This document shows positions 20,130 through 43,904 of a DNA stretch of 64,000 bases, piece after piece. Source of the stretch: Aureimonas populi. GTDB taxonomy: Bacteria > Pseudomonadota > Alphaproteobacteria > Rhizobiales > Rhizobiaceae. The position numbers were made by a program, and so were the translations under genes. The DNA lies in the NCBI RefSeq assembly GCF_017815515.1, contig NZ_CP072611.1, forward strand, positions 2,728,001-2,792,000, given 5' to 3'. The notes beneath the pieces were generated by a model. It was given only the letters and a program-made list of their open reading frames with translations, was not told the origin of the DNA and made no database searches. Every line of letters starts with the position of its first letter. Position 1 is the first letter of the stretch.

Positions 20130-20204
20130 TGGCTCCCCGGGCCGGATTCGAACCAGCGACCGATCGATTAACAGTCGAGTGCTCTACCACTGAGCTACCG
20201 GGGA
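20130..20204 (-). tRNA. tRNA-Asn (anticodon GUU)
   Basis: On the minus strand the 75-nt tRNA has acceptor TCCCCGG pairing with CCGGGGA, discriminator G and encoded CCA. The anticodon loop is CTGTTAA with anticodon GTT, and the T-loop is GGTTCGAATCC. It lies just after the FUSC gene, on the opposite strand. Confidence 0.95.
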
Positions 20205-24229: not shown

Positions 24230-24373
24230 TCCAGACTCCCTCGCGTTACATGGACACGGGGATTCAGCCGCAGCTCCGCGCGGACTGGACGAATTTGCTT
24301 GGAATGACGAGGAGATGCGTGCTTGGGCGGTCGTTGGACGACCAATTCGGATAGGAGCGACGGGCCGCCCGAG

Positions 24374-27719: not shown

Positions 27720-27842
27720 CAGGATCGCGACGACCGATGGGGACCCGGACCCGATAAGCGCGGGGACCGCGGGAGACGCCGCACTGTGGGGCGGATCGAG
27801 CGTGGTGGTGGGGATGGCGGCGAACCCGCTCGGAGCCCACCA

Positions 27843-27866
27843 GGCCGGCTCGAGTTTTCGCCGGCC
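27843..27866. repeat. Inverted repeat, 7-bp arms
   Basis: GGCCGGC (27843-27849) and GCCGGCC (27860-27866) flank a 10-base loop. It lies just downstream of the ParB-like operon. It could be a hairpin or a protein-binding site. Confidence 0.5.
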
Positions 27867-27901
27867 GCGTGGCTGGCGTGGTGCCGGTCATGACGCGGGA
27901 T

Positions 27902-27942
27902 GGGCGTGCCGGTCGAGCGTCGATGGACTTCCCGGCACGCCC
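27902..27942. repeat. Inverted repeat, perfect 11-bp arms
   Basis: GGGCGTGCCGG (27902-27912) and CCGGCACGCCC (27932-27942) are perfect complements separated by 19 bases. No T-run follows, so it is a poor intrinsic terminator. A binding site for one of the ParB-like proteins or a recombination site is possible. Confidence 0.6.
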
Positions 27943-28100
27943 AAGCGCCTGCTCATGAATGGTGCCATCGCGATCATCTCCGCCCAGGCGCGGTCAAATA
28001 CCACCAAATCGGACGAAACCCGCCTTGAACCCGTTTACTCCTGCTGAGTCGGATGAGATAGTGAGAACTTGGAGAAGGCTGACCTCTCGAGGGCCGTATC

Positions 28101-28352
28101 ATGTCCGACCGCTGGGTTTCTGTAGAAGAAATTGCTGAACATCTCGGCGTCAGCAAAGACACGATCTACGGATGGATAAGTAAGAGAGAGATGCCTGCTC
28201 ATAAGGTCGGGCGACTTTGGAAGTTCAAAACTGGCGAAGTCGATGACTGGGTAAGGAACGGAAAAGCATCGGACGATTACAGAGAAGCAGAAACATCGGG
28301 GCCTGCTTCACAGAGGGAGAAGCATGCGGAAAGAGGGAAAGCGGATGGCTGA
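28101..28352 (+). CDS. Excisionase-type helix-turn-helix protein, first gene of the DISARM operon
   Basis: The 83-residue protein is a MerR/excisionase-like DNA-binding domain: WVSVEEIAEHLGVSKDTIYG followed by WISKREMPAHKVGRLWKFK and a short charged tail. Such small proteins act as excisionases or as transcription factors. Here it sits at the head of the operon, and its 3' end overlaps the methyltransferase start, which suggests it controls the operon much as a C protein controls a restriction system. The site it binds is not known. GAGGG lies 7 bases before the ATG. Confidence 0.85.
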   Translation: MSDRWVSVEEIAEHLGVSKDTIYGWISKREMPAHKVGRLWKFKTGEVDDWVRNGKASDDYREAETSGPASQREKHAERGKADG

Positions 28353-29442
28353 TATTGCGTGCGTCGACCTTTTCTGCGGGGCCGGCGGCCTTACGCATGG
28401 GTTGATTTCTGAAGGCATCAAGGTCGTTGCGGGCATAGACGTCGATGAGGCATGCCGTCACCCCTTTGAAGCCAATAACGCGGCGAAATTCATCAATGAG
28501 GATGTGGGGCGTCTGACTCCCAAGCGTCTCGACGAGTTGTTCGGTGATGCTGAATTCCGCGTGCTCGCCGGGTGCGCGCCCTGCCAGCCATTCTCGACCT
28601 ATGCCCAGCGTTACGATGTCGTTGGTAGCCCCCGTTGGGGTTTGCTCTACCAGTTCGGCCGCCTGATCAAAGCGACGCACCCCGACTTGGTCACGATGGA
28701 GAATGTCCCGTCCGTGGCCAAGCATGCGGTCTTCGACGACTTCGTCGAAACGCTGCAGAAGATGGGGTACCACGTCAAGCAAGGGGTGGTCGATTGCTCT
28801 CTGTACGGGCTACCGCAAAGCCGGAGACGCATGGTGCTCTTGGCCTCCCGGCTCGGTCCCATTGAATTGGTCGCGCCGACACATGATCGCCCAGTCACCG
28901 TTCGCTCGGCGATCGGACGACTTGCGATAATCGATCAGGGTGGTGCCCATCCAAAGGACCGGCTGCATGCGGCATCCAAGCTCTCCGATCTGAACCTCGA
29001 AAGAATCCGTGCCTCTCGTCCAGGTGGCACTTGGCGAGACTGGCCGGACCATCTCGTCGCCGCCTGCCATCGCCGTGAAACGGGCCATACCTATCCGGGG
29101 GTCTACGGACGAATGGTATGGGACGAACCGGCGCCAACCCTGACCACACAATTCTACGGCTTCGGGAACGGCCGGTTCGGACACCCCGAACAAGATCGAG
29201 CCATCTCGTTGCGTGAAGGGGCGATCCTTCAGGGATTTCCCAAGTCCTATTCCTTCATTCCGAAAGGGGCTCCCGTTCATTTCAAGGCGTTGGGTCGCAT
29301 GATCGGGAACGCGGTACCGGTCACTCTCGGCGAAGTGATAGGCAAGAGTATCGCGACCCATCTCGGGATCGAAGCCGAGAGGACGAAAAGAAAAAAGAAG
29401 GGAGCCGTCGCGGATGTCGCGCGTAAGTCCCTCGTCGCATGA
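28345..29442 (+). CDS. DNA (cytosine-5) methyltransferase
   Basis: The enzyme transfers a methyl group from SAM to C5 of cytosine in DNA. The protein of about 365 residues has the motifs in order: I DLFCGAGGLTHG, IV GCAPCQPFS with the catalytic cysteine near residue 75, VI ENVPSVAKH, VIII QSRRRMVLLA, and X MIGNAVPV near the C terminus. The variable target-recognition part covers about residues 190-280. Two starts are possible, 28345 (AGAGGG 8 bases upstream) or 28324. It overlaps both neighbours, a Vsr endonuclease following. A 5mC methylase is a hallmark of class 2 DISARM (drmMII), so its place beside a class 1 core is unusual. The target sequence cannot be read. Confidence 0.92.
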   Translation: MADIACVDLFCGAGGLTHGLISEGIKVVAGIDVDEACRHPFEANNAAKFINEDVGRLTPKRLDELFGDAEFRVLAGCAPCQPFSTYAQRYDVVGSPRWGLLYQFGRLIKATHPDLVTMENVPSVAKHAVFDDFVETLQKMGYHVKQGVVDCSLYGLPQSRRRMVLLASRLGPIELVAPTHDRPVTVRSAIGRLAIIDQGGAHPKDRLHAASKLSDLNLERIRASRPGGTWRDWPDHLVAACHRRETGHTYPGVYGRMVWDEPAPTLTTQFYGFGNGRFGHPEQDRAISLREGAILQGFPKSYSFIPKGAPVHFKALGRMIGNAVPVTLGEVIGKSIATHLGIEAERTKRKKKGAVADVARKSLVA

Positions 29443-29854
29443 AGCCAGCCGTCGGATGGCTCGCGTCCGGCAAAAGGGCACGCAGGCAGAGATCGACCTG
29501 CGCAGGGTGCTGCATTCCAAGGGTCTGAGATATCGCCTGCACGTGCCGTTGCTGACGAAGCCCAGACGCGTCGCCGATATCGTCTTCCCCAGTGTTCGGA
29601 TCGCCGTCTTCGTCGACGGTTGCTTCTGGCATGGTTGTCCCGAGCATGCCTCTTGGCCGAAGAGCAACGCCGAGTTCTGGCGTGAAAAGATTGAAACCAA
29701 TCGCGCCAGGGATGCCGATACCGATCTGCGGCTGAACGCACTTGGTTGGACGATCGTGCGGATTTGGGAACACGAAGATGCCAGCGATGCCGCGGCTCGC
29801 ATCGCTGAGCTCGTCGGCGCACGCAGGAAGGATGGGGGCGGCCCATGTCGATGA
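29414..29854 (+). CDS. vsr: Vsr (very short patch repair) mismatch endonuclease
   Basis: Vsr nicks next to T in T:G mismatches that arise when 5-methylcytosine deaminates. The 146-residue protein carries RVADIVF with the metal-binding aspartate, the core FVDGCFWHGCPEHASWP, SNAEFWREKIETN and LGWTIVRIWEHE, all typical of Vsr. In the core the position before GCFWH is D rather than the H of the E. coli enzyme, a variant common in the family. It overlaps the methyltransferase by 29 bases and drmD by 10. It should protect against mutation at the sites of the companion 5mC methylase. Confidence 0.92.
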   Translation: MSRVSPSSHEASRRMARVRQKGTQAEIDLRRVLHSKGLRYRLHVPLLTKPRRVADIVFPSVRIAVFVDGCFWHGCPEHASWPKSNAEFWREKIETNRARDADTDLRLNALGWTIVRIWEHEDASDAAARIAELVGARRKDGGGPCR

Positions 29855-32800
29855 ATGTAGATGAGATCGCAGCCAAAATCGCTCACAATACCGCCCCTGA
29901 GCCGGGCCAGTTGGTCGAGGCTCGCCGCCGCCAATGGATCGTTTCCGAGGTCGACGGCGGCACGGTCGCGCCCGGGTTCCCCCAGCGACATCTGGTTCGA
30001 CTTGCTTCCATTGATGAGGATGCGCTCGGCGAGGAGATCGAGGTGCTTTGGGAACTCGAACCCGGCGCGCATGTAATCGAGCGGGCCGGATTGCCCCGAA
30101 TGACTGGCCTGGACGACCCCTCGACACTTCAGGCGTTCCTCGATGCAGTCCTTTGGGGTGCCGCTACGAATGCAGATCGGGGCTATCTGCAGGCGCCATT
30201 CCGCAGTGGCGTCAGCATCGAAGACTTCCAATTGGACCCGTTGGTGCGCGCCATCGACATGGCGCGCACCAATTTGCTGATCGCCGATGACGTCGGCCTC
30301 GGAAAGACCATCGAGGCCGGGCTCGTCGTCCAAGAGATGCTCTTGCGTCATCGAGCCCGCACCGTTCTCGTGCTTTGCCCGGCCTCTCTGCAGGAAAAGT
30401 GGCGCATCGAAATGCAGGAGAAGTTCGGGCTCGAGTTCCGGATCGTCGATACAGAATACGTCAAGCGTTTGCGCCGGGAGCGGGGCCTGCATGCCAATCC
30501 GTGGACGTCCTTTCCCAGACTCATAACATCGATGGACTGGGCCAAGCAGGGTGAAGGCCTGCGTCTCCTGCGCGATGCTCTGCCGCCGCACGTAAGTCAT
30601 CCTCGAAAATTCGACCTGCTGATCATCGACGAGGCCCACAACGTCGCCCCGACCGTCGGCCGGTATGCAGTCGAGAGTCTTCGGACACGGTTGGTGCGTC
30701 TCGCTGCACCACACTTCCAGCACAAGCTGTTCCTCACGGCTACGCCGCACGACGGCTATACGGAGTCCTTCACCGCGTTGCTCGAACTCCTCGACGACCA
30801 ACGGTTTGCAAGAAACGTTCTACCCAGCGACCCGCAGCTCGCCCGGGTGATGGTTCGCCGCCTCAAGAGCGATCTCGTCGATGCGAACGGCAAGCGCATC
30901 TATCCCGAGAGGCGGCTCGAAGCACTGCCGATCGAGTATTCGGAGGAAGAGAGGGACGTTCGGCGGCAACTCGAAGCATACATCAAAAGCCGCGAGAGCG
31001 GAGATGATGGCAGGCGTGCGGTCGATCATTTCGTGCACCAATTGCTACGCAAGCGCCTCTCTTCGTCTCCCGCGGCATTCGCAGCCACGCTGGAGCGGCA
31101 TATCTCAACGACCGAAGGTCGGGCGTCGAGTGAGCGCGGCCAGAAGAAATTCGATGATCGTATCCTCCGGCGGGCTATAGCGAAGACAGAAGAGGACTAC
31201 GCGGACGACGCCCAGCGAGACGACGCCGAGGCAGAAGCGATCGAGGAAGCCGGAAAGCACATCCGGCCGCCGACCGACGAAGAACGTCGGATGCTCGATC
31301 GGTTACGCTCATGGGCTCAGCAGGCGGCCCGTCGAACGGACGCCAAGGCTAGTGCCTTGCTGGGCTGGCTGGCCAAGCATCTGAAGGACGGGGAACGGTG
31401 GACGAACGAGCGGGTGATCCTGTTCACCGAATACCGCGCTACACAGCAATGGATGCACGAGATCCTTGCAGCCCAAGGCTTCGGGGCTGAGCGGCTGGCT
31501 CTAATCTACGGCGGCATGGATCCGAAGGAACGCGAGGCCGTGAAGGCGGCGTTTCAGGCCGATCCCTCGGAATCGCCTGTGAGAATCCTGTTGGCAACCG
31601 ACGCTGCCTCGGAGGGGATCGATCTCCAGAACCATTGCCACCTGATGATCCACCTCGAGATTCCTTACAATCCCAACGTCATGGAGCAGCGGAACGGCCG
31701 TATCGACCGCCACGGTCAACGTGCCAGCGAGGTCGTGATCTGGCACCCAGTGGATGCTGAGGGTGGCCACGGAGACGACATTCTACGCGCGCTCCGAAAG
31801 CTGGATGCGATGCGCGCGGACATGGGCAGCGTCAACCCGGTCATTGCGCCCCAGCTACCGGACCTCCTCGAGGGACGGCGTCGCGATCTCGACACGCGAC
31901 AAGCCGAGGCTCGGATGGAGAAGTCGCGCCGTTTCGTGAAGGCTGAGCGCGATCTGCGTGAACGTGTCGCCAAACTCCACGAGCGACTGAACGAGACCCG
32001 GCGCGAGCAGAGCCTCGTGCCCAATCACATCGAACGGGCCGTGCGTACGGCTCTGCGTCTTGCAGACAAGCCCGACCTCGAACCAGTCTCACTGTCTGGA
32101 GCGCCGGACGGCACCGTCTTTCGCATGCCGTCTTTGTCGGGATCATGGTCGCGGTGCCTCGAGGGGCTCGAACACCCCTATAACCAGAAAATTCGTCCCA
32201 TCACCTTCGACCACGATGTCGCCAAGGGACGAGACGATATGGTTCTCGTCCACCTGAACCACCGCCTGGTTCAAATGAGCCTTCGTCTCCTGCGTGCGGA
32301 GATATGGGCACGCGACGATGTGAAGAAGCTGCATCGTGTCACCGTCCGCTCGCTCCCGGATGGTCGTATCGAGGGACCGGCCGTGGTCGTGATGTCCCGC
32401 CTCGTCGTGACCGGCGGGAACCATCACCGCCTGCACGAGGAGCTCACCGAAGCAGGGGGATATCTGCGCGACTCCGGTTTCCGGCGGGAGGAGCGGGTTA
32501 CCGAGGTTCGGCGCTGGCTGGAGGAATCTCGCCCGGCGGCACTGGCGGATTCGACCTTCGATGCTTTGCGGACCCGCTTCGACAAACAGCGCGATGCCAT
32601 TCTGGCCGCCGTCGAAGCTCGCTCGAAGGACCGGCTGCGCTTTCTCGTGAACACCATAGAGAACCGGAAGCGGAAGGAAGCCGATGATATTCGTCAAGTT
32701 CTGGACGACCTCGAGCATGCGCTGAAGAATGAAATCGCCGCAGAACAGCAGCCCGTGCAGCTTTCCCTGTTCTCCGAGGACGAGCGCACTCAGTTAAAGC

Positions 32801-32964
32801 GCGACCGGGCGGCTCTCGAGGCACGTCTGGCCCGAATCCCGAAGGAACGAGAACAGGAACTGCTGGCGATCGAAGAACGGCACTCCAACGCCATCGAGCA
32901 CACCTTCCCGGTGGCCGTCATCCTGTTGGTGCCGGACGCCCTCGTGACGGAGAAGCGCGGATGA
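29845..32964 (+). CDS. drmD: DISARM protein DrmD, SNF2-type helicase
   Basis: This is the class 1-specific DISARM helicase, a SNF2/SWI2-type ATPase. The 1039-residue protein has Walker A DDVGLGKTIEAGL near residue 149, DEAH in LLIIDEAHNV near 262, and TATPHDGYTES near 298. The C-terminal helicase lobe has ATDAASEGIDLQ near 585 and QRNGRIDRHGQ near 615. The rest, about 700-1039, is helical with predicted coiled coil. It begins inside the vsr gene and ends in a 4-base ATGA overlap with drmMI, so these genes are co-translated. Function in defence follows from the family. Confidence 0.9.
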   Translation: MSMNVDEIAAKIAHNTAPEPGQLVEARRRQWIVSEVDGGTVAPGFPQRHLVRLASIDEDALGEEIEVLWELEPGAHVIERAGLPRMTGLDDPSTLQAFLDAVLWGAATNADRGYLQAPFRSGVSIEDFQLDPLVRAIDMARTNLLIADDVGLGKTIEAGLVVQEMLLRHRARTVLVLCPASLQEKWRIEMQEKFGLEFRIVDTEYVKRLRRERGLHANPWTSFPRLITSMDWAKQGEGLRLLRDALPPHVSHPRKFDLLIIDEAHNVAPTVGRYAVESLRTRLVRLAAPHFQHKLFLTATPHDGYTESFTALLELLDDQRFARNVLPSDPQLARVMVRRLKSDLVDANGKRIYPERRLEALPIEYSEEERDVRRQLEAYIKSRESGDDGRRAVDHFVHQLLRKRLSSSPAAFAATLERHISTTEGRASSERGQKKFDDRILRRAIAKTEEDYADDAQRDDAEAEAIEEAGKHIRPPTDEERRMLDRLRSWAQQAARRTDAKASALLGWLAKHLKDGERWTNERVILFTEYRATQQWMHEILAAQGFGAERLALIYGGMDPKEREAVKAAFQADPSESPVRILLATDAASEGIDLQNHCHLMIHLEIPYNPNVMEQRNGRIDRHGQRASEVVIWHPVDAEGGHGDDILRALRKLDAMRADMGSVNPVIAPQLPDLLEGRRRDLDTRQAEARMEKSRRFVKAERDLRERVAKLHERLNETRREQSLVPNHIERAVRTALRLADKPDLEPVSLSGAPDGTVFRMPSLSGSWSRCLEGLEHPYNQKIRPITFDHDVAKGRDDMVLVHLNHRLVQMSLRLLRAEIWARDDVKKLHRVTVRSLPDGRIEGPAVVVMSRLVVTGGNHHRLHEELTEAGGYLRDSGFRREERVTEVRRWLEESRPAALADSTFDALRTRFDKQRDAILAAVEARSKDRLRFLVNTIENRKRKEADDIRQVLDDLEHALKNEIAAEQQPVQLSLFSEDERTQLKRDRAALEARLARIPKEREQELLAIEERHSNAIEHTFPVAVILLVPDALVTEKRG

Positions 32965-35900
32965 GCACCGATCACGAATGGCTGAATCTCATCGAAGTAT
33001 CGGGCCCCTTCCTGGCGGTACCCGTACTGAAGGAAGTCTTTCCCCAAGGTCTCGAAGCTCTTCCTTCCGGCCGCCCCCAGCGATTGCGTCGAACATATGA
33101 GGAATGGCGCGATGCCGTCGACATGGACGACCTCGACTTGCCATCCCTGCACGCGGCATGGATCGACGACGTACTGACCACGGCGCTGGAGATGGATGAC
33201 GCGGTGTTGCGTCGCATCGGGGCTCTGCCCGAGCGCCTGACGGTCTCACTGCCAGAGCATGGGGTCACGGTCGCGCCCGATCTGGCGGTGGTGAATCCGA
33301 CGAACGGCGACGAACCGCTCCTGCTCATTCACATCTACGATCCCGATACCGATCTCGATGCGACTCACCGTTTCGACGGTCTTGCCGTCACGCCGGCCGA
33401 TCGGATGGTTGCTCTGCTCCGTGCGACGGGATGCGCCATCGGCATCGTCACCAATGGTGAGCGCTGGATGCTCGTCCATGCGCCCGTCGGGGCCGTGGCG
33501 GGTTTCGCCAGCTGGTATGCACGTCTCTGGGGACAAGAACCGGAGACATTGCGTGCCTTCGTCAGCCTTCTGGGCGTCCGTCGCTTCTTCGGACCCGACG
33601 AGGGAAAGCTGCCCGCACTCTATGAACGGTCACTCAAGCATCAGAACGATGTGACCGAGGCGCTGGGCGAACAGGTCCGGCGGGCCGTCGAAGTGCTCAT
33701 TCAGGCTCTGGATCGCGCAGATCAGGATCGCAATCGCGAGCTGTTGCGCGACGTCGATCCGCGTGAACTCTACGAGGCCGGTCTGACGGTCATGATGCGG
33801 CTCGTCTTCCTGCTGGCTGCCGAAGAGCGCGCATTGCTGCTGCTCGGCGATCCTCGCTACGATTCTTTCTACGCCATCTCCAGCCTGCGGATGCAGTTGC
33901 GCGCGGATTCCGAAGAGATCCTCGAGCGTCGCCGGTCGGCATGGTCTCGTCTGCTCGCATTATTTCGTGGGGTCTATGGCGGCATCGATCATCCGACGCT
34001 CCGCCTTCCGGCCCTCGGCGGCTCGCTGTTCGATCCCGACCGCTATCCCTTCCTCGAAGGCCGCAAGAAGGGAACGACCTGGCGCAGCGACCCTGCGGAA
34101 CCGTTGCCGATCGACGACCGAACCGTTCTGCTCCTGCTGGAGGCGATCCAGACCTTCGAAGGCCGCACGCTGTCCTATCGTGCGCTGGACGTCGAACAGA
34201 TCGGTCACGTCTACGAGGGTCTCCTCGAACGCACGGTGAAGCGTGTCGAGGATGTGACGCTGGAATTGGACAGCAGCGCGAAGGCCAAGAACCCCCGCGT
34301 AACACTGGGCGAGTTGGAGTCTGCGCGGCTTGACGGAATGGCGAGGGTTGCCGACCTGCTGAAGGAACGGAGTGAGCGCTCGGAGTCCGCCATCCGAAAC
34401 GCCCTCGGGCGAGCGGCTGACGATCGCCTTGCTGCGCGATTGCTCACCGTTTGCCGCGGCAACCCTGACTTGCGTGACCGCCTTCTGCCCTTCGCATCCC
34501 TCCTGCGGACCGACCCATGGGGTTATCCGCTCGTCCATCATTCCGGAGCCTTCGTCGTCGTCCTCGGCGCCGACCGGCGTGAGAGCGGGACGCATTACAC
34601 GCCGAAGAGCCTCACCGAGAAGATCGTCGAGGAGACGCTCACGCCGGTCGCCTATCGTGGTCCGGCAGAGGGCAAGGCGCCCGAGGAATGGGAGCTGAAG
34701 AGTGCGGAGGAACTGCTCGATCTGAAGATCTGCGACCCCGCCATGGGATCGGGCGCGTTCCTCGTTCAGGCGTGCCGCTGGCTTTCCGGCCGGCTGGTCG
34801 AGGCTTGGTCGATCATCGAAGCGAACGGGGGGAAGATCGATAGCGAAGGTCGCATCCTTGGCGAAGGTGATGCCGAAGGGTTCGAGCCCTTGTCGCAGGA
34901 CGCCGAAGAACGCGCGATCCTCGCGCGGCGTCTCGTCGCCGAGCGCTGCCTCTATGGGGTGGACAAGAATCCGCTGGCCGTCGAACTCGCCAAGCTCTCG
35001 CTGTGGCTGACCACGATGTCGAAGGGGCGGCCTTTCGGCTTTCTCGACCACAACCTGCGCAGCGGTGACAGTCTTTTCGGGATTCACGATCTGGGTCAGC
35101 TCGTCGAGCTCGATATGAATCCGAAGGGCAAGGCTCAGCTTCGGCTGTTCGGCCGAACCATTCGGTCGGCAGTCGACAAGGCACTCGAGTTGCGCGCCCG
35201 GCTGCGGGACATTCCCATTCGCGACATCCACGATGTCGAGGCAATGGCAGCGCTTGATGCCCAGTCGCGCGGCGAACTCGCACTGCCGACGATCATCGCC
35301 AATGCATTTGTCGGAATCAATTTCGTTGAAGAGCGAGTGGGAGAACGTGCCGCACGAATCGAGACGTTGGCTGCATTTGCCGATGCTGCCGCGAGCGGCG
35401 ATGCCACGGTGAAACATCGTCTTTTGCGCGAGGCCACGGCTGATCTGTCGAAAGATGCGCCTGAAGGTGCGACACGAACGCCGTTCAATTGGCCACTGGA
35501 GTTTCCGGAGGTGTTTCTTCGTGAGAAACGTGGCTTCGACGCCTTCGTTGGAAATCCACCGTTCTTGGGGGGTAAGCGAATAAGTACAGTGATGGGTCCA
35601 ATTTTCAATGTATGGCTGGTCAATTTACATGATGGCGCTAGCAAGAACGCTGATCTGGTATCGCACTTTTTCCGTCGTGCATGGACTCTGATCCGCGAAG
35701 ATGGTGGCTTTGGCTTGTTGGCCACAAATACAATTGCCGAGGGCGATACTCGGCAGAGTGGGTTAGAGTGGATGCTACAAAAAGGTGCGGTCATCCATGC
35801 GGCGTACCCGAACGAAGCTTGGCCGGGGCAAGCGGCCGTAGTGACAAGTCGAGTGCATATCCATAAGGGCAATTGGCTTGGTTCGCGGACACTACTTGGA

Positions 35901-37070
35901 CGCCCAAAGGCACATATATCAGCGTTTCTTACCGAAGGTGAGGAATGGAGCCCAAAACGGCTTAAGTCCAACGAAAGGATGGCTTTCATCGGGTCTCTGT
36001 TGAATGGGATCGGATTTGTACTTTCGCCTGCAGAGGCAGCTGAAATGATTTCCGCAGATGCAAAGAATGAAGAAGTTATTTTCCCGTATTTGGGGGGAGA
36101 GGATCTCAATCAAAGCCCCGAGCAAAAGCCCTCGCGCTATGTAATAAACTTCTTCGATTGGAGCGAAGAGAAGGCTAGAGAATATCAGTTGCCGTATGCA
36201 AGGCTCCTTGAGCGCGTCAAGCCGCATCGAGACAAGGTGAGCGACGCGAAGAAGCGCGTGAAGGAATGCTGGTGGAACTACGAGGCCCTTGGGTATGAAT
36301 TATACTGCGAACTCGGATTAGGTCGTCGGTTTGCACGCCCTGCGACCAGTGGAAGAGATAAACCACCGCGACGTATCATCGGACTCTCACGCGTCAGCAA
36401 GACCCTCGCATTCTCATTCGTTGATCCAACCTGCGTCTTTTCAGAGCAGGTAGTAGTGTTTCCCACTGAGTCAGCGGCAGTTTTTTCCGTTCTTCAATCA
36501 AATATTCACGCTGTATTTGCGTGGCAGAATTCGTCTCGAATGAAGAATGACCTAAGATATTCACCGACCGACGCTTTGGCTACCTTCCCTTTCCCGGCGC
36601 TTACCAATTCTTTGGAATCCTTGGGCGCCGATCTAGATGGAGCTCGCCGCGAATTTATGACCCGCGAGGGCATCGGCCTTACTAAGCTCTATGGCAAATA
36701 CCACTCCCGAGCCGACAGTTCCAACGAGACCATCCGACTGCGCGATATACAGCACGAGGTTGACCATGCACTTGCGGCTGCTTTTGGATGGGACGATTTG
36801 GATCTTGGGCATGGGTTTCACGAGGTGCCCTACCTACCTGAGAATGATCGGGTCCGGTTCACGATCTCAGAGCCAGCACGTCTAGAGATTCTGCGTCGTT
36901 TGGCCGAGCTGAACCGGCAGCGTTACCAGGAAGAGGTCGATCGAGGTCTGCACGGCGTGACGTCTGGTTCAAGTAAAGGGCGTGGGCGTCGAACTCGCGC
37001 CGCTTTGGCGTCCGAACTCACTCTTGATCTCGAAGATATTCTTCCAACAACCACTGAGGGGGACGATTGA
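32961..37070 (+). CDS. drmMI: DISARM protein DrmMI, N6-adenine DNA methyltransferase
   Basis: This 1369-residue protein is the class 1 DISARM adenine methylase that marks host DNA. The methylase core carries ESGTHYTPKSLTEKIV near residue 541, motif I CDPAMGSGAF near 592, GVDKNPLAVELAKLSLWL near 669, and the catalytic motif IV NPPF near 864. The N-terminal 500 residues are an additional helical domain. The part after NPPF (about residues 860-1310, bases 35540-36900) is clearly richer in AT than the rest of the cluster, as expected if the target-recognition part was exchanged. It is the longest gene of the operon and is followed after 2 bases by drmA. Confidence 0.9.
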   Translation: MSTDHEWLNLIEVSGPFLAVPVLKEVFPQGLEALPSGRPQRLRRTYEEWRDAVDMDDLDLPSLHAAWIDDVLTTALEMDDAVLRRIGALPERLTVSLPEHGVTVAPDLAVVNPTNGDEPLLLIHIYDPDTDLDATHRFDGLAVTPADRMVALLRATGCAIGIVTNGERWMLVHAPVGAVAGFASWYARLWGQEPETLRAFVSLLGVRRFFGPDEGKLPALYERSLKHQNDVTEALGEQVRRAVEVLIQALDRADQDRNRELLRDVDPRELYEAGLTVMMRLVFLLAAEERALLLLGDPRYDSFYAISSLRMQLRADSEEILERRRSAWSRLLALFRGVYGGIDHPTLRLPALGGSLFDPDRYPFLEGRKKGTTWRSDPAEPLPIDDRTVLLLLEAIQTFEGRTLSYRALDVEQIGHVYEGLLERTVKRVEDVTLELDSSAKAKNPRVTLGELESARLDGMARVADLLKERSERSESAIRNALGRAADDRLAARLLTVCRGNPDLRDRLLPFASLLRTDPWGYPLVHHSGAFVVVLGADRRESGTHYTPKSLTEKIVEETLTPVAYRGPAEGKAPEEWELKSAEELLDLKICDPAMGSGAFLVQACRWLSGRLVEAWSIIEANGGKIDSEGRILGEGDAEGFEPLSQDAEERAILARRLVAERCLYGVDKNPLAVELAKLSLWLTTMSKGRPFGFLDHNLRSGDSLFGIHDLGQLVELDMNPKGKAQLRLFGRTIRSAVDKALELRARLRDIPIRDIHDVEAMAALDAQSRGELALPTIIANAFVGINFVEERVGERAARIETLAAFADAAASGDATVKHRLLREATADLSKDAPEGATRTPFNWPLEFPEVFLREKRGFDAFVGNPPFLGGKRISTVMGPIFNVWLVNLHDGASKNADLVSHFFRRAWTLIREDGGFGLLATNTIAEGDTRQSGLEWMLQKGAVIHAAYPNEAWPGQAAVVTSRVHIHKGNWLGSRTLLGRPKAHISAFLTEGEEWSPKRLKSNERMAFIGSLLNGIGFVLSPAEAAEMISADAKNEEVIFPYLGGEDLNQSPEQKPSRYVINFFDWSEEKAREYQLPYARLLERVKPHRDKVSDAKKRVKECWWNYEALGYELYCELGLGRRFARPATSGRDKPPRRIIGLSRVSKTLAFSFVDPTCVFSEQVVVFPTESAAVFSVLQSNIHAVFAWQNSSRMKNDLRYSPTDALATFPFPALTNSLESLGADLDGARREFMTREGIGLTKLYGKYHSRADSSNETIRLRDIQHEVDHALAAAFGWDDLDLGHGFHEVPYLPENDRVRFTISEPARLEILRRLAELNRQRYQEEVDRGLHGVTSGSSKGRGRRTRAALASELTLDLEDILPTTTEGDD

Positions 37071-37072
37071 TC

Positions 37073-40000
37073 ATGGCCGATTTGACCGCAACTACCGAGC
37101 CGTCAGTCAGCGCCTGGATCGTCAAGAGGGTATCCAACTCGCCACGATATTCCGTGTGTATTGATGTCGGATCGACCACCCATGGCGCGATTGATGAGGG
37201 CCACTGGGTCGTCATTCTGGACGATGACGGCGGTGTCTCCGGGATCGGCCGCATCCTCCGTATCCGCTCGGACCTTGATGGTTCCACGATTCACTTCGAC
37301 CATTGGCATCCCGTGGATCCGTCGATCCCGCTCGTCGACCTTGGGCTGACCGTGCCGACTGGACCTGCAGCGCGGCTGCCATGGGACGATTTCTTGCGTG
37401 TTCTGCCGCTCCTCGGCGTCGCCGATCCGGGCGCAGTGCCGCTGATCGACGATGTCGTCTATGTCCGCGAGCTTCTCGAACTGGCCGTGCGTGACGATCT
37501 GCTCGGCCCGGCCGCCGGCCCCCACGAACTGATCAAGGACATGAGCGTACGTGACCGCTATCTCGTCGGCAAGCTGGCGCCACGGCGGCCGGACGACGAC
37601 CATGCACCCCAGGTGGAACCGGCTTCGGCAGCCGACGAGAGCGGCGACCTCGAGGACGAGCGGACGGCGCCGCTCCACGAGCCCGGCGCGGAGTTCGCGA
37701 GCGTATCGGGCCGCGTAGAGCCGGAGGATGACGCGCTCGACGAGATCGACACGACGAACAATCAGTCGCTGGTGCCCTCGAGCATGGGCCTCACCTTTTG
37801 CGTGGCGCCCGATGTCGCGACGCTGGCCATCGATGCACGATGGGGGCGTTACGAACGTGTCCCCAACGACGAGCATGACATCGTGAAGACCCGCAGGAAT
37901 CGCGAAACCGGTCGTGAAGAAGAGGTGAAGGTCAGGGTCTGGAAGCGAATCCCCTGCGGTGGGGTGATCCGATTGCCGCTCGTCGACGGTCAGATCAAAC
38001 CATCGACACCCGATCCGGATCAACCGGATGTCCGTTTGCAAGGCACGGTGCGGACGAACAACAAGGGGGAGCGGCTCGTCACCCTGTTCCTGGTGAACGG
38101 CCAGCTGGAGCCCAACGACAACAAGGACCGCGCCTGGCTGTTCCAACCGGAGATCAGCGTGGAGGCCTCCGAGGGGCAGAGCGACAGGGCTGTGTTTCGG
38201 CGTCGACCGTCCAACGAAGTCGTGGTCGATGACGCGGAGCGCGATCGGCTCGCACTCATCTATCGCAATCGACTGGAATTTGCCGTCGGACATGGCGTAT
38301 CCGTGCACGCCGATACGACGCCCGAGGATCCGACGAAGGCCCACCGCGTCAGAACCGAGATCATCCCGCGCTACGAAGTCGCCGTCACCGAAACGCCCGG
38401 CCTCGATCCCAGGGACCGCCCAGCCATGCGGCGCATGGTCGACGAGGGCTGGCTGGATATGACGCGCCTGGCGGAGATGGCGCCGGACGCGTTGCGCGAT
38501 GCCCTCTCGTGCCTCGTCGACGACTACGCCGTTTGGATCGACGAGCAGAAAGCGCGGCTGGGGTCCGAGATCACCGGTTTCGATGATCCGGGAAAGGACG
38601 TCATAGAACGCTGCGAGGAGATCCTGCGTCGCCTTCGGGACGGCATGGCCACACTCTTTGCGGATCCGAAAGCGCTGGAGGCGTTTCGCTTCGCCAATCG
38701 GTCCATGGCGATGCAGCGTGTCCGAAGCATCTACGCTCTGAAGCGCAGGCGAAACGAGACCGTGGATGTGGCCACGTTGGACGTGCCGAAGAACAGGTCG
38801 TGGCGGCCGTTCCAGCTGGCATTCTTGCTGCTGTCGATCCCGTCGCTCGCTGATCCGGCTCATCCGGACAGGACGAAGCCGGTCGAGGCGTTCGCCGATT
38901 TGCTCTGGTTCCCGACCGGTGGCGGCAAGACTGAGGCCTATCTCGGTGTGGCAGCCTTCGCCATGGCCATGCGCCGCCTCAAGGATGATTTGGGCGGCCT
39001 CGACGCTTCCCGCGGTCTCGCCGTCATCATGCGCTACACGCTGCGACTGCTGACGCTGCAGCAGTTCCAGAGAGCAACGACGCTGCTTTGCGCAATGGAA
39101 GTCATCCGCCGTGCGGACGACAAGACGTGGGGTACGGAGCCGTTCACGCTCGGCCTCTGGGTCGGAAATCGCGTGACACCGGGGACCACCGAAGCGTCTC
39201 ACCAGGCTGTGGAGGCCATCCGCAACAATGACCGCAACAAAGCGGGCATCGCTTCGCCCGCACAGCTGACCAGCTGCCCTTGGTGCGGATCGGAGATCTC
39301 CGGTGGTCGTGACATAGAGGTCGACAGGATCGCCGGCAGGACACTGATCCATTGCGGTGACAGGCTGGGTAGCTGCGATTTCTCGAAGGCGAAATCCAGC
39401 GGACAGCCCCATCCGGGGCTTCCCGTGAAGGTGGTCGACGAGGAAATCTATCACCGTCCACCGACGATGATGATCGCAACCGTCGACAAGTTCGCGATGA
39501 TGGCCTGGCGCCCTCAGGTACGGACTCTGTTCGGCCGTATCGATCAGGAATGCGGACGCCATGGCCTGCTCTGGCCGAGCCATGACTGCGGCACTGGGCA
39601 CCGAGCGAGGGGCGCATATCCGGCCGCCAGCGTGAGGCCAGTTCGCGCCATCAGACCGCCGGACCTGATCATTCAGGACGAATTCCATCTCATCAGCGGC
39701 CCGTTGGGTACGATGGTCGGTCTTTACGAGACGGCCGTCGATGAACTGAGCAGCTGGGTTCTGGGCGATATGAAAGTTCGTCCCAAGGTGGTTGCCTCGA
39801 CCGCGACCGTCCGGCGAGCCGATGATCAAGTGCGCAACGTCTTCATGCGGCGAATATCGGTGTTCCCGCCCTCGGGACTGGACGTCGAGGACAACTTCTT
39901 CTCGGTCCAGAGACCAATCAGCGAGAAACCCGGGCGGCGCTACATGGGCGTCTGCGCACCGGGAAGTTCGCGCCCTGCGGTTCTGATTAGGACCTATACA

Positions 40001-41062
40001 GCGTTCTTGACAGCTGCACAGGCGCTGTTCGATCGGTTCGGCCCGGTGGCCGACCCTTACATGACGCTCGTCGGCTACTTCAACTCGCTGCGAGAACTCG
40101 GTGGCATGAAACGGCTGGCGGAAGACGACGTCCAGACACGTTCCTTCCGCGTCAATATGAGCTTGGTGGACAGACCGGGTCTCTCCCAGCGACGCGTCGA
40201 CGAGGTCAGCGAATTGACGTCGCGCGTCTCCAGTCAGGACATTCCCCGATACCTCGATCAGCTCGAGGTCCCGTTCGAAGGGGCTTTCGATCCGGCACAG
40301 GGGAAATGGGTGACCAACCGGAAACCAGGAGAGGCCCGACCGATCGATGCCGTCCTCGCGACCAACATGTTGTCCGTCGGGGTCGACGTGAATCGTCTCG
40401 GGGTGATGGTCGTCAATGGTCAGCCCAAGGGAACGGCCGAGTACATCCAGGCGACCAGCCGCGTAGGCCGGACGCCTCCGGGACTAGTAGCGACCGTTCT
40501 GACTTGGGCTCGGCCGCGCGACCTGTCGCATTACGAGACATTCGAGCATTACCACGCGACGTTCTACCAGCATGTCGAAGCTCAATCCGTCACTCCGTTC
40601 TCCCCACGTGCGTTGGACCGAGGGCTTACGGGCGCGATGCTTTCAATCATGCGTCATAGCTATGATCCCTTCGCGGCAAACGATGGGGCTGGCGCCATGA
40701 ACAGCCCGAGCCTCAACGAGATGCTGGAAACGATTGGGGCCATTGCTGCACGAACCTGGGAAGTCACCGAGGATTCTGGGAAAAAGGCTTTGACCGAAGC
40801 CGAAATGAAGAGCCGTGCCGACGAATGGGCGAATGAAGCAAGCGTTGGCGGTCGCACGCTCGTCTACCAAAAGCATGGCGCGGGTCCCACCGCTTACCCG
40901 CTCCTCTCAGCACCCGGAATCAAGCCTTGGACCGACTGGACCGTTCCGATGTCGATGCGCGAGGTCGAGCCCGGTGTGAGGCTCGTGATGGAGGACGACC
41001 GATCGACCAGCGATCCGACTTGGCGACCGAGGGTGATCAGAGCCGAGGAGGATCAGCAATGA
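37073..41062 (+). CDS. drmA: DISARM protein DrmA, helicase-domain ATPase
   Basis: DrmA is the core DISARM helicase and with DrmB forms the DNA-sensing complex. The 1329-residue protein has Walker A PTGGGKTEAYLG near residue 614 and the DExH box QDEFHLISGPLG near 869. It also has STATVRRADDQ, LATNMLSVGVDVNRLGVMV and motif VI QATSRVGRTPPG near 1126. A cysteine pair (CPWCGSEI near 734, with a C..C further on) suggests a small zinc finger between the lobes. The ATG at 37073 lies 2 bases after the drmMI stop; a TTG two codons earlier is possible but unlikely. Its end overlaps drmB by 4 bases (ATGA). Confidence 0.92.
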   Translation: MADLTATTEPSVSAWIVKRVSNSPRYSVCIDVGSTTHGAIDEGHWVVILDDDGGVSGIGRILRIRSDLDGSTIHFDHWHPVDPSIPLVDLGLTVPTGPAARLPWDDFLRVLPLLGVADPGAVPLIDDVVYVRELLELAVRDDLLGPAAGPHELIKDMSVRDRYLVGKLAPRRPDDDHAPQVEPASAADESGDLEDERTAPLHEPGAEFASVSGRVEPEDDALDEIDTTNNQSLVPSSMGLTFCVAPDVATLAIDARWGRYERVPNDEHDIVKTRRNRETGREEEVKVRVWKRIPCGGVIRLPLVDGQIKPSTPDPDQPDVRLQGTVRTNNKGERLVTLFLVNGQLEPNDNKDRAWLFQPEISVEASEGQSDRAVFRRRPSNEVVVDDAERDRLALIYRNRLEFAVGHGVSVHADTTPEDPTKAHRVRTEIIPRYEVAVTETPGLDPRDRPAMRRMVDEGWLDMTRLAEMAPDALRDALSCLVDDYAVWIDEQKARLGSEITGFDDPGKDVIERCEEILRRLRDGMATLFADPKALEAFRFANRSMAMQRVRSIYALKRRRNETVDVATLDVPKNRSWRPFQLAFLLLSIPSLADPAHPDRTKPVEAFADLLWFPTGGGKTEAYLGVAAFAMAMRRLKDDLGGLDASRGLAVIMRYTLRLLTLQQFQRATTLLCAMEVIRRADDKTWGTEPFTLGLWVGNRVTPGTTEASHQAVEAIRNNDRNKAGIASPAQLTSCPWCGSEISGGRDIEVDRIAGRTLIHCGDRLGSCDFSKAKSSGQPHPGLPVKVVDEEIYHRPPTMMIATVDKFAMMAWRPQVRTLFGRIDQECGRHGLLWPSHDCGTGHRARGAYPAASVRPVRAIRPPDLIIQDEFHLISGPLGTMVGLYETAVDELSSWVLGDMKVRPKVVASTATVRRADDQVRNVFMRRISVFPPSGLDVEDNFFSVQRPISEKPGRRYMGVCAPGSSRPAVLIRTYTAFLTAAQALFDRFGPVADPYMTLVGYFNSLRELGGMKRLAEDDVQTRSFRVNMSLVDRPGLSQRRVDEVSELTSRVSSQDIPRYLDQLEVPFEGAFDPAQGKWVTNRKPGEARPIDAVLATNMLSVGVDVNRLGVMVVNGQPKGTAEYIQATSRVGRTPPGLVATVLTWARPRDLSHYETFEHYHATFYQHVEAQSVTPFSPRALDRGLTGAMLSIMRHSYDPFAANDGAGAMNSPSLNEMLETIGAIAARTWEVTEDSGKKALTEAEMKSRADEWANEASVGGRTLVYQKHGAGPTAYPLLSAPGIKPWTDWTVPMSMREVEPGVRLVMEDDRSTSDPTWRPRVIRAEEDQQ

Positions 41063-42900
41063 GCAGGACACCCGTAGGAGAAATCCGACCGAGCCAACTG
41101 CTCTGGACCTATGGCCCGGGGGCCTTGATCGACTTGCCGAACATGTCGGTCGTCACGATGGGGATTGATCGTTGGGAGAAGGACAGATGTCAGCCGATTC
41201 AGGAGGCGAGATTGCTGGCCAATGTCCGGAGCGTACTCGGTCCCCAGGTCGATTCACTCCGCATGCCGCCCATCGGCGAGGGAGACATCGTGGATCCCTT
41301 TTCTGCAGCGGCGTTGATCGGTGTCCCCGTAAAACCCTTTCCGAGATGGCTCCGCTGCGTGAAATGCGGCTTGCTGTCACCCTATGATGCCGGATTGTTC
41401 AAGCTGAAAGAGAACAGGTACCGTCCAGAGTCGACGCGTTTCGTACATGAGGGTTGTCGAGGCTCAAACAACAATCAAAGGGCCAAGGATGCCGATGCGG
41501 TTCCAGCCCGCTTCCTCATGGCATGTCGCGCCGGCCATTTGGACGACTTTCCGTGGCACTGGTTCGTTCATGGCGGGCCGAGCACATGCCGAGCAACGTT
41601 GCGATTCTTCGAGAGCGGCGCATCGCTTCAGACCGAGAACCTTTGGGTCAAGTGCGATGGCTGTGGTGCATCGAAGAACATGGCGCAGGCTTTCGGTCAG
41701 GCGGGTCGAGACAATCTACCGGGTTGCCGCGGGCGTCACCCACATGTGGACCGGTTCGAGGACGACTGCGCCGAGGAGCCTCGCGCAATCCTTCTGGGCG
41801 CAACCAATAGCTGGTTCCCGGTGACGCTATCGGTTCTCGCAATACCGCAAACAGGGAATCCTTTGTCCCAACTGATAGCGGACGGCTGGACCTTCTTCGA
41901 AGACGTGAGTTCAGCGGCCGAGGTCGCATTCGTAGTAAAGACCCTCAAGAAGACCGCTCAGCTCCCCGGCATCGAGCAGTTCACCGACGAGCAAATCTGG
42001 GCCGCGATAGAAACTCATCGCAATGGCGGACCGAATGTCGAACAGAGTGATCTGAAGGGTCCCGAATGGGACGTGCTGACGGCTGACAGCCCACCCACCG
42101 ACTACCCGCACTTTATGAGCAAGAAAGTTGGCATTCCTCCGGGCTTCGATCCGGTGATCACGCGCGTTCTCTTGCTGGAACGCCTTCGTGAAGTGAATGC
42201 ACTTCTCGGATTCACGAGAGTCGAGTCGCCGGACGAAGGCACAGGAGACGATGCAGCTCCACGGGCTCCACTCGGACGTGCCGCGCCAAATTGGGTGCCA
42301 GCTACCCAAGTCCACGGGGAAGGCATTTTCATCCGCTTCAGTTCCGATGCTCTGAAGGCCTGGGCGGATAAGGACGCTGTGAAATCGCTCGATGGTCGGC
42401 TCAGACAGGGGCATCGTGGATGGCGTCACAAACGAAACCTCGACCCGAACGAAGGTTATCCGGGCGTCCGCTACGTCATGCTACATACTCTTGCACACAT
42501 GCTTATACGGGAACTGGCCTTGGAGTGCGGCTACAATGCTGCAAGTATTCGTGAGCGGATATATGCAGACGTCGAGGACGTCCGGGATCAGGCGGGATTT
42601 CTCATATATACGGCTGCCGCTGACTCCGATGGAACTCTGGGAGGACTGGTAGAGCTCGGGAAGCCCGAAAATCTTGGCCGACTGCTACGCCAGGCATTGG
42701 AACGCGCCCACATCTGTGCGTCCGATCCTCTCTGTGCAGAGCATGATCCGAGCAAGGATCAGTCTTTGCATGGTGCAGCATGTCACGCCTGTTCGTTCGT
42801 GTCGGAAACCTCCTGTGAGCGGGGAAATCGCCACCTGGACCGCTCCTTGGTCGTGCCCACGCTGGAAAATCCTGATGCTGCGTTCTTCGAGACCGTCTAA
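41059..42900 (+). CDS. drmB: DISARM protein DrmB (DUF1998 / MZB domain)
   Basis: DrmB carries the DUF1998 domain and partners DrmA in every DISARM class. The 613-residue protein begins VGEIRPSQLLWTYGPGALIDLP, a very conserved DrmB N terminus. It has cysteine pairs near residues 100 and 200 (CVKCGLL and CDGCGA), and the DUF1998 region from about 475 (LHTLAHMLIRELALECGY). The C terminus has further cysteines (CASDPLC, then ACHACSFV and SCERGN), which probably bind zinc. It overlaps drmA by 4 bases and drmC by one, so it is coupled on both sides. Confidence 0.93.
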   Translation: MSRTPVGEIRPSQLLWTYGPGALIDLPNMSVVTMGIDRWEKDRCQPIQEARLLANVRSVLGPQVDSLRMPPIGEGDIVDPFSAAALIGVPVKPFPRWLRCVKCGLLSPYDAGLFKLKENRYRPESTRFVHEGCRGSNNNQRAKDADAVPARFLMACRAGHLDDFPWHWFVHGGPSTCRATLRFFESGASLQTENLWVKCDGCGASKNMAQAFGQAGRDNLPGCRGRHPHVDRFEDDCAEEPRAILLGATNSWFPVTLSVLAIPQTGNPLSQLIADGWTFFEDVSSAAEVAFVVKTLKKTAQLPGIEQFTDEQIWAAIETHRNGGPNVEQSDLKGPEWDVLTADSPPTDYPHFMSKKVGIPPGFDPVITRVLLLERLREVNALLGFTRVESPDEGTGDDAAPRAPLGRAAPNWVPATQVHGEGIFIRFSSDALKAWADKDAVKSLDGRLRQGHRGWRHKRNLDPNEGYPGVRYVMLHTLAHMLIRELALECGYNAASIRERIYADVEDVRDQAGFLIYTAAADSDGTLGGLVELGKPENLGRLLRQALERAHICASDPLCAEHDPSKDQSLHGAACHACSFVSETSCERGNRHLDRSLVVPTLENPDAAFFETV

Positions 42901-43661
42901 TGGAAGCGTTGTTGATCGCCGCCTTGGATCTCGTAGCCCTATTGTCTCCGCCGAGGATCGAGGCGCTTGCTGATCGCGTCCGTGGCTCGACGGCGGCCGA
43001 TAGAGATAGAAGTTTGCACCTACTGGTAACCACACCACCCGCTCGCGTTGCACTTGATCGTTTGCTTACCGCCTGGGAACAGGCGACGATCTCAGGAGAT
43101 GTGTTGGCTGGGATTCTGGTTGGCGCGGCATATGCGCGCCAACAGGCTCAGCGCGAGAGTAATGTCGAACTCGTCTGGACGGGTCCGACGACACCTTTCG
43201 TGGCAACCCGTCGCACAGAGCAGGTGCTGTTGGATCTCATCCGTCACGCTGAGACTGACCTCTTCCTCGTCAGTTTCGTCGCGTATGATGTCTCCTCGGT
43301 CGTTGGCGCATTGAACGCTGCGGCTGCTCGCGGCATCGAAATCCGCATTCTGCTGGAAACCTCCACGAGCCATGGTGGGAGCCTGTCTGTCGATCCTATC
43401 GCCACGATGCGGAGCTGTGTGCCTTCGGCAACACTGTATGTCTGGACAGATCGACCGGCACCATTCACCGAAGGAAGAGTTCACGCTAAGGTAGCTGTCG
43501 CTGATGGAATTTCAGCTTTTCTCACCAGTGCAAACCTGACCGGGCACGCGCTCGAGAAGAACATGGAGGCAGGCGTCGTTATCAATGGTGGGCACGTTCC
43601 TGCGGGCCTGCGCGCGCATTTGCATGCTCTCGTCGAAACAAGGGTCATTCGCAAGATTTAG
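42900..43661 (+). CDS. drmC: DISARM protein DrmC, phospholipase D-like
   Basis: The 253-residue protein is a PLD-superfamily member with one HxK motif, VHAKVAVADG near residue 194, followed by SANLTGHALEKNMEAGV. The N-terminal half has a related fold but no second HKD, so a dimer would be needed for activity, as in small PLD nucleases. DrmC was reported as dispensable in some DISARM systems. Its start shares one base with the drmB stop. It ends the operon, and its stop is only 12 bp from the convergent stop of the prophage o-spanin. Confidence 0.9.
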   Translation: MEALLIAALDLVALLSPPRIEALADRVRGSTAADRDRSLHLLVTTPPARVALDRLLTAWEQATISGDVLAGILVGAAYARQQAQRESNVELVWTGPTTPFVATRRTEQVLLDLIRHAETDLFLVSFVAYDVSSVVGALNAAAARGIEIRILLETSTSHGGSLSVDPIATMRSCVPSATLYVWTDRPAPFTEGRVHAKVAVADGISAFLTSANLTGHALEKNMEAGVVINGGHVPAGLRAHLHALVETRVIRKI

Positions 43662-43673
43662 CTGGAGTGTGCA

Positions 43674-43904
43674 TTACACTTGGCACGCCCTCGCCTGATC
43701 CCGCATGACGGCGTAGTCGCTCAGCATTTCTGCGATAGCCGATCCATCTGGCAGCAATAGAAGTTCACCCGCCGCGCGCCTCTGGAACTCGTGACTGTAT
43801 CCGACCACCGGTGGGCAGATAGTGGCGATACGCGGCTCAGAACCGACCGTCGCGCAGCCGGTCAGTAAGCTCGTCGCGAGACCGAGGACGGCGAGTTGCC
43901 GCAT
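43674..43904 (-). CDS. Putative o-spanin (Rz1-like outer-membrane lipoprotein)
   Basis: The 76-residue protein has a lipoprotein signal with lipobox LLTGC (cysteine near residue 16) and a short mature part (ATVGSEPRIATICPPVVGY). This fits an o-spanin anchored to the outer membrane. Its first part lies inside the end of the i-spanin gene in another frame, a classic Rz/Rz1 arrangement. A start at 43904 is preferred; 43928 is possible. Spanins fuse inner and outer membrane in the last step of lysis. It is the leftmost prophage gene. Confidence 0.7.
   Translation of the reverse strand: MRQLAVLGLATSLLTGCATVGSEPRIATICPPVVGYSHEFQRRAAGELLLLPDGSAIAEMLSDYAVMRDQARACQV

Follow-up and report, generated by a model that had tools for sequence, protein, structure and literature searches.

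The locus described here raises a plain question: where does a class 1 DISARM (defence island system associated with restriction-modification) begin and end? The window, by which we mean the whole 64,000-nucleotide stretch of Aureimonas populi that was analysed (contig NZ_CP072611.1, positions 2,728,001 to 2,792,000), carries eight open reading frames (ORFs), all intact by ORF and sequence reading and all on the + strand, spanning 28101-43661. Five of them are drm genes, and the three in front encode a small helix-turn-helix (HTH) protein, a C5-cytosine DNA methyltransferase (M5C) and a Vsr mismatch endonuclease. The quoted part of the PADLOC definition of DISARM type I asks for DrmA, DrmB, DrmC, DrmD and DrmMI, without drmE (PMC9252829). 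We consider it probable that the locus is a complete class 1 DISARM of which the HTH protein, M5C and Vsr are integral parts, working in the manner we propose below.

An earlier note, made from the letters of this DNA, had named all five core genes with intact catalytic motifs, and profile searches and a motif check agree: DrmA, DrmB, DrmC and DrmD exceed their NCBIfam cut-offs, and DrmMI is recognised by its PADLOC model. The SNF2-like helicase gene drmD (29845-32964, 1039 amino acids; second ATG at 29851) matches NF038317 with 1368.5 bits against a cut-off of 610 and holds GLGKT at residue 151 and DEAH at 262. The product of drmMI (32961-37070, 1369 amino acids), an MmeI/Eco57I-like adenine methyltransferase, scores 1822 bits with the PADLOC DrmMI model and matches PF07669 and the MmeI domains PF20466 and PF20473 of Pfam, with DPAMGSG at 592 and NPPF at 865; the NCBIfam search gave nothing above a cut-off for it. 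DrmA, a YprA-type helicase (37073-41062 from ATG, 1329 amino acids, with an alternative TTG start possible at 37067), reaches 1466.3 bits with NF038325 (DrmAS; cut-off 950), is homologous to the solved DrmA 7s9v over residues 28-1327 (1786.1 bits), and has TGGGKT at 615, DEFH at 869 and SRVGR at 1129. DrmB, a DUF1998/MZB protein (41059-42900 from ATG, 613 amino acids), matches NF038324 with 764.3 bits over a cut-off of 240. That match begins at residue 50 of the longer ORF that the mechanical list starts at TTG 40927; the likely start is ATG 41059, which is preceded by a purine-rich gaggagg, as read in the sequence, and overlaps drmA by four bases. The PLD-family nuclease DrmC (42900-43661, 253 amino acids) matches NF038319 (DrmC_I; 256.6 bits, cut-off 133) and has a single HxKx4D motif, from residue 195.

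All the genes that class 1 requires (drmD, drmMI, drmA, drmB and drmC) are present. Class 2, defined by drmE with drmMII, does not apply: a DrmMII-like methylase is present, and the PADLOC matches listed for the operon's eight products do not include DrmE, the rest of the genome not having been searched. Judged by its profiles the locus is a complete class 1 DISARM, from a lineage found mainly in Proteobacteria, and a predicted anti-phage system. We kept the five-gene definition for membership; taken alone it is too narrow, as the three upstream genes recur too regularly for chance.

Membership of the upstream genes

The three genes in question are the HTH gene (28101-28352, 83 amino acids, a HTH_17/excisionase-type DNA-binding protein, MAD1-like), M5C (28324-29442, 372 amino acids; second ATG at 28345) and vsr (29414-29854, 146 amino acids). 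The earlier note had counted them as part of the system. We arrive at the same view because they recur among relatives, because M5C can change side without being lost, because M5C and Vsr diverge in parallel with DrmD, and because a repeat array is specific to loci with the HTH gene; gene overlap, as set out below, is not what decides it.

Relatives were fetched with an alignment of 18 DrmMI proteins, and since only the best 80 of 270 DrmMI-similar stretches were kept (best-segment identity at least 47%), they represent one lineage. Sixty-eight could be tested, by counting genes in the 3.5 kb that precede drmD; in the other 12 the sequence ahead of drmD was shorter than 2.6 kb or the start of drmD was missing. 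The full order HTH-M5C-vsr precedes drmD in 38 of the 68; M5C-vsr does so in 15, HTH-M5C in three and M5C alone in seven (in L081 about 2 kb from drmD), and five have none of the three. M5C is present upstream in 63 relatives, vsr in 53 and HTH in 41, four of the HTH matches being weak (33-35 bits; L071, L085, L099 and L105). Some loci yield only partial genes, their best matching frames being far shorter than in other loci (M5C and drmD in L034, drmMI in L090).

The relatives without an upstream M5C are instructive. Both vsr and M5C lie after drmC in L089 and L067, and M5C lies about 5 kb past drmC in L074. For L078 the linkage is inferred: M5C sits on a different contig of that genome, at its end, beside a C-terminal fragment of drmC. 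The fifth, L055, is counted on neither side. Counted together, M5C is linked to DISARM in 67 of 68 relatives (one inferred across a contig end), upstream in 63 and beyond drmC in four.

Further afield, a Microvirga plasmid has the full gene order, plus two extra genes between drmMI and drmA, and on a Deinococcus plasmid vsr and M5C lie at the opposite end of the DISARM instead. In the divergent class 1 loci L115-L120 of the same phylum (L116 is cut short), HTH, M5C and vsr were not found upstream of drmD by profile, and at the very edge of the L117 stretch M5C is matched weakly (52 bits). Cyanobacterial and actinobacterial plasmid regions of class 1 type, not every one of which carries all five class 1 genes, have neither an annotated vsr nor an HTH-M5C pair beside drmD in gene tables that are incomplete; in three of them a cytosine methylase is annotated at a distance of about 1-4 kb from a drm gene. 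Because the divergent loci examined are mostly without it, the HTH-M5C-vsr module marks mainly one class 1 lineage.

Divergence within that lineage was compared in 39 loci, the window included, in which M5C, Vsr, DrmD, DrmMI, DrmA and DrmB could all be assessed. Distances correlate with those of DrmD at r=0.975 for DrmA, 0.971 for the N-terminal part of DrmMI, 0.961 for DrmB, 0.899 for Vsr, 0.799 for M5C and 0.735 for the M5C recognition region, and none of 2000 permutations was as high for any of these six; shared ancestry contributes to all of the correlations with DrmD.

Could the three genes be a separate, solitary methylase-repair unit that merely lies beside DISARM in a defence island? 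As a base rate, M5C is present at E<=1e-100 in 6 of 398 phylum-sample genomes, the window's own included, and two of those six also have a DrmD match (sample of equal size, drawn the same way). The other four (L201-L204) gave no DrmD match at E<=1e-150 and have a vsr near M5C, directly beside it in three and 4.3 kb off in the fourth. In G484, a genome of another genus, a Mza-like system comes with a more distant cytosine methylase and a Vsr. Set against this are the near-constant linkage of an M5C that switches side but stays, the M5C and Vsr distances that track DrmD, and the M5C and vsr frames that overlap in 25 of 53 loci. We judge a separate unit to be very improbable.

The overlaps themselves call for caution. 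The note had listed overlaps of 1, 4, about 8, 10 and 29 bases and a 2-base gap before drmA, and our measurements match it: overlaps of 29 (or 8) bases at HTH/M5C, 29 at M5C/vsr, 10 (or 4) at vsr/drmD, 4 at drmD/drmMI, 4 at drmA/drmB and 1 at drmB/drmC, and a 2-base gap at drmMI/drmA. It had also read them as the sign of one unit with a single transcript, which is a prediction. They are present here, but they are lineage-bound and by that token do not define a unit by themselves. In the 53 relatives where vsr is upstream, its aligned start falls within M5C by 29 bases in 19 and by 26 in six, and in 23 of the remaining 28 the vsr frame opens only past the M5C stop, where overlap is impossible; for this reason we dropped gene overlap as evidence of linkage. 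Scans of 27600-43900 gave one promoter-like site, against 3.7 in shuffles, and 14 terminator-like sites, against 11.2 (standard deviation 3.8), with four of the 14 on the + strand.

The HTH protein matches PF12728 (57.4 bits) and the excisionase-type TIGR01764 (61.8 bits, cut-off 28.8); with NF047737, MAD1, it scores 78.1 bits, below the cut-off of 80, and we do not assign it to MAD1. Regions upstream of the HTH gene, 41 in all (the window and 40 loci with HTH above 75 bits), share the motif CNGNCYAAATC, recurring at 10 bp, with at least one match in all 41 and at least two in 38. They hold 116 matches and 42 pairs at 10-bp spacing, whereas refits on 100 dinucleotide shuffles gave a mean of 43.1 matches (maximum 67) and at most three such pairs. 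Training the motif on either of two groups and scoring the group left out gave 47 matches against 8.4, and 45 against 7.1. Two matches occur in the 27 loci without a confident HTH and seven in 39 coding controls, with zero 10-bp pairs in both. Since the array is absent from loci without a confident HTH, the 10-bp repeats upstream of HTH genes are likely an operator, and new here. BldC belongs to the same HTH group; it binds direct repeats of 9 bp and builds filaments in which each molecule takes up about one turn of DNA (PMC11963761). A filament regulator of BldC/Xis type would bind direct repeats about one DNA turn apart; the 10-bp array is HTH-specific in the relatives and weak in the window, and the HTH protein is a candidate for that type.

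In the window the proposed operator occupies 27990-28030 (+ strand), with four units of about 11 bases in a 10-bp register, starting at 27990, 28000, 28010 and 28020, for which the motif above is the clade consensus. Beside it we read a putative promoter, TTTACT-17-GATAGT (28034-28062, + strand), similar sequence being present in the seven closest upstream regions aligned. The loose promoter pattern is kept in just 22 of 41 upstream regions, and the standard scan did not list the site. With the window held out and the matrix built from the 40 relatives, the six best positions within 200 bp upstream of the HTH start (28010, 28050, 28000, 28020, 27990 and 28040) share one register.

A different role for the HTH protein would be that of excisionase to the neighbouring recombinase cassette rather than regulator of DISARM. 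It would suit the TIGR01764 match and the serine recombinase and two RepB-like genes that lie directly upstream of the operon (24323-27719). Yet the RepB-like genes of this cassette are near just three of 80 loci (L034, L065 and L098; flanks are often short), with weak recombinase matches (25-38 bits) in three more (L045, L068 and L099), while HTH is upstream of drmD in 41 of 68 relatives and the array sits at promoter-like sequence of the HTH gene itself. An excisionase role is, in our estimate, scarcely to be expected, and we take the protein to be a probable regulator of the operon.

Several observations weigh against treating the three genes as integral. The relatives were fetched by DrmMI similarity and form one lineage, so that the counts are not independent events. 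HTH is unmatched upstream in 27 of 68 relatives, and vsr is not upstream in 15. Four of these 15 have a Vsr match after drmC (L067, L089, L096 and L107 (two weak pieces)) and the remaining 11 have none inside the fetched locus. Genomes were searched for eight of the 11, and six are without any Vsr (the L067 genome was also searched; its copy is the one after drmC); Vsr is dispensable, since whole genomes among the loci lacking vsr do without it. The four genomes with M5C and vsr and no DrmD match belong on this side too. Finally, the window's own array is weak: just 28010 and 28050 reach the 6-bit threshold of the held-out scan, and with two of six in-register positions passing we call it degenerate. 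Our reading remains that the three genes are parts of the system.

Methylase specificities, Vsr and the DrmA N-terminus

M5C matches PF00145 (180.8 bits) and the dcm family TIGR00675 (128.1 bits over 100.65), and its best PADLOC model is DrmMII (297.4 bits). The motifs PCQ (at residue 86) and ENV (at 126) are both present in 68 of 68 sequences of at least 330 amino acids, the window's included. The target-recognition region (28915-29202, + strand; residues 198-293, limits estimated from motif positions) is conserved in the lineage, with a mean pairwise identity of 0.735 against 0.676 for the whole protein across the 39 loci. The C-terminal part of DrmMI, with its target-recognition domain (35568-37067, + strand; residues 870-1369), is hypervariable, with a mean identity of 0.386, and its distances correlate with those of DrmD at r=0.103 (151 of 2000 permutations as high). 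DrmMI N-terminal parts are at least 85% identical in 84 of 741 locus pairs; in 68 of these 84 the C-terminal part (from residue 950) is less than 50% identical, and in three the M5C recognition region is less than 70% identical. Because the one varies freely and the other does not, adenine specificity seems to be exchanged and cytosine specificity held. At the level of sequence the specificity half of DrmMI is freely swapped while the M5C recognition region is conserved, an observation new here.

Vsr matches TIGR00632 (114.9 bits, cut-off 97.85) and was aligned to E. coli Vsr 1cw0. E26, D55, F71, W72, H73, W89, N96 and D100 are invariant in 56 of 56 sequences, the window's included, and we take them to correspond to the catalytic and T:G mismatch-intercalating residues of the E. 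coli enzyme. This invariance favours a predicted T:G repair nickase over a general nuclease. It bears as well on the idea that Vsr is the DNA-cutting effector of DISARM instead of a repair enzyme, an idea encouraged by the Vsr-type nuclease domains that are fused to related YprA helicases in ARMADA (PMC12458937) and by a report that DrmC is apparently non-essential for DISARM (PMC9142583). Against it stand the invariant catalytic and intercalating residues, the place of vsr, which usually adjoins M5C, outside DISARM too, and the loci without vsr. We find an effector role unlikely and prefer the repair enzyme.

At the N-terminus of DrmA, residues 1-130 (37073-37462, + strand) form an EVE-like domain in a predicted structure searched with Foldseek. 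The model covers residues 1-260 with a mean predicted local distance difference test (pLDDT) score of 63.7; ten-residue blocks reach 81-94 over residues 41-140, and the model is poor past about residue 150. The best matches are DrmA itself (7s9w and 7s9v), then 1zce (E 5.9e-4, listed as Atu2648), which we take to be an EVE protein, and further down the VcaM4I restriction enzyme 6yex (2.2e-3) and ASCH and YTH domains, with modest TM-scores. An EVE-like domain has been named for class 1 DISARM in PMC12458937, and our model agrees. As modelled, the DrmA N-terminus is EVE-like in fold, and reading of a modified base is its candidate role.

A profile of this N-terminus matches 74 of 74 assessable relatives, plus Microvirga and Deinococcus; of 14 divergent loci it matches none, three of them offering too little of the N-terminus for a scan. 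A phylum-wide search with the N-terminal alignment matched 2 of 398 genomes. The Nocardioides, Trichormus and Tsukamurella regions lack an EVE match, yet a cytosine methylase lies at about 1-4 kb from one of their drm genes; they count against tying the two together, and a strict EVE-M5C pairing was rejected as not clean. The association is imperfect, and may stem from one ancestral event.

The drmMI-drmA slot and genomic surroundings

The tight drmMI/drmA junction that the note had reported is indeed two bases long here (37071-37072, + strand, an empty slot), but this bare junction is the minimal form: of the 67 relatives that could be assessed, 51 have more than 300 bp between the two genes and 16 have at most 300 bp (13 of 80 were not assessable). 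The slot with its varied inserts is new here. A Pfam search of one representative for each of ten clusters or variants named an O-methyltransferase (19 loci) with a GHKL ATPase (18), another GHKL ATPase (17), AspBHI_N/Mrr-type endonucleases (seven, one of them lying between drmD and drmMI), an SNF2 helicase (six) with a protein of no assigned family (six), a DUF7380/DUF4209 protein (five), a KAP NTPase (four) and, as a further cluster between drmD and drmMI, a Mrr-type gene (seven). A GHKL-type ATPase paired with a Methyltransf_35 O-methyltransferase recurs in the slot in L033, L036, L040, L045, L060, L062, L070, L098, L099, L148 and others.

The recombinase of the upstream cassette is matched in 61 plasmid records at E<=1e-60. 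In three annotated plasmid records two RepB-type genes follow it, and the region holds restriction-like genes (sulfur-modification-like, type I or restriction endonuclease). G484 has the same cassette in 90% identical DNA, followed by its Mza-like system with cytosine methylase and Vsr. A siphovirus-like prophage on the - strand starts about 30 bp past drmC (43694-64000 and the next 20 kb, L122), its start being placed where homology to G484 begins. It encodes terminase, portal, capsid-protease, tape measure, GTA-like tail protein and endolysin-like peptidase, with primase/helicase further on; the far end has a serine recombinase ORF (L123:7-1206). Together, the recombinase cassette, the G484 parallel and the prophage suggest a mobile defence island.

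We did not adopt the idea that the prophage carries DISARM as cargo: related phage sequence in G484 begins at the corresponding position (57031; window 43694), but other genes come before it. DrmD was matched in 1 of 50,697 phage records at E<=1e-20, at 36% identity and unannotated. No empty insertion site emerged, as the stretches of five same-genus genomes align to the window and its flanks over one gene only, at 69-71%, and a search for shared attachment repeats gave mere 9-10-base matches. A tRNA-Asn gene lies at 20130-20204 (- strand), about 4 kb left of the cassette.

Proposed working and known systems

We propose a model where the small HTH protein would bind the 10-bp array at the promoter, cooperatively as BldC/Xis proteins do, and so set expression of the operon. 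M5C would put 5-methylcytosine (5mC) at a fixed site in the host's chromosome, DrmMI would put N6-methyladenine (6mA) at a lineage-specific one, and both marks would label self DNA; self-labelling by both methylases has been proposed in print for the Serratia DISARM (PMC9142583). Vsr, to judge from its invariant residues, would nick T:G mismatches arising from 5mC deamination, so that the mark keeps its sites and the host is spared mutation. DrmAB would load onto unmodified DNA with a 5' overhang, as the Serratia work indicates: there DrmAB binds single-stranded and 5'-overhang DNA, and unmethylated DNA raises its ATPase activity while 5mC DNA reduces it (PMC9142583). A candidate for reading the modified base is the EVE-like domain of DrmA, and DrmD and DrmC may help to block or destroy phage DNA.

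It is tempting to go further and see a two-mark system of self/non-self distinction, in which a constant 5mC, set by M5C, usually preserved by Vsr and read by the EVE-like domain, is combined with a diversified 6mA, a BldC-like HTH filament and a slot for helpers or effectors. We offer this only tentatively, and think it somewhat less likely to hold than to fail. If the 5mC methylase, Vsr, HTH protein and operator are regular parts of one lineage, annotation tools under-describe the system, and five-gene experiments may miss self-marking and control. The contrast of a held 5mC region with an exchanged 6mA domain, together with a reader fold in DrmA, makes the self/non-self question of DISARM directly testable.

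With PADLOC DISARM type I the locus shares the five required genes; the HTH protein, M5C and Vsr lie outside the quoted definition (PMC9252829). ARMADA (PMC12458937) shares with it the SNF2-like helicase, adenine methylase, YprA helicase and Vsr-type nuclease, but there Vsr is fused to the helicase. Here Vsr is a small protein of its own beside a 5mC methylase, and DrmB and DrmC are each encoded separately. No ARMADA-type fusion was seen: DrmA has no Vsr match in profile searches, and Vsr is its own ORF. MAD1 of the methylation-associated defence system (MADS), a different system, is the same small HTH type (NF047737), and the match lists of the operon's eight products name no further MADS protein.

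The DISARM of Serratia sp. SCBI we take to be class 1. Its DrmA is homologous to the one here and its operon has both 5mC and N6-adenine methyltransferase genes, with motifs ACAC(mA)G and YMT(mC)GAKR, so that two methylases in one DISARM are already known; 'vsr' does not occur in the text of that paper, which is what our comparison covers (PMC9142583). There is no Serratia protein among the best 120 of 5,584 relatives of one Pseudomonas Vsr. Neither Vsr nor the HTH array was found described as part of DISARM in the literature searched, which does not establish absence in print. In the dcm-vsr pair of E. coli, a 5mC methylase gene is followed by an overlapping vsr. The window repeats that arrangement and keeps the presumed catalytic and intercalating residues of Vsr; the difference is that its M5C and vsr sit within a DISARM operon.

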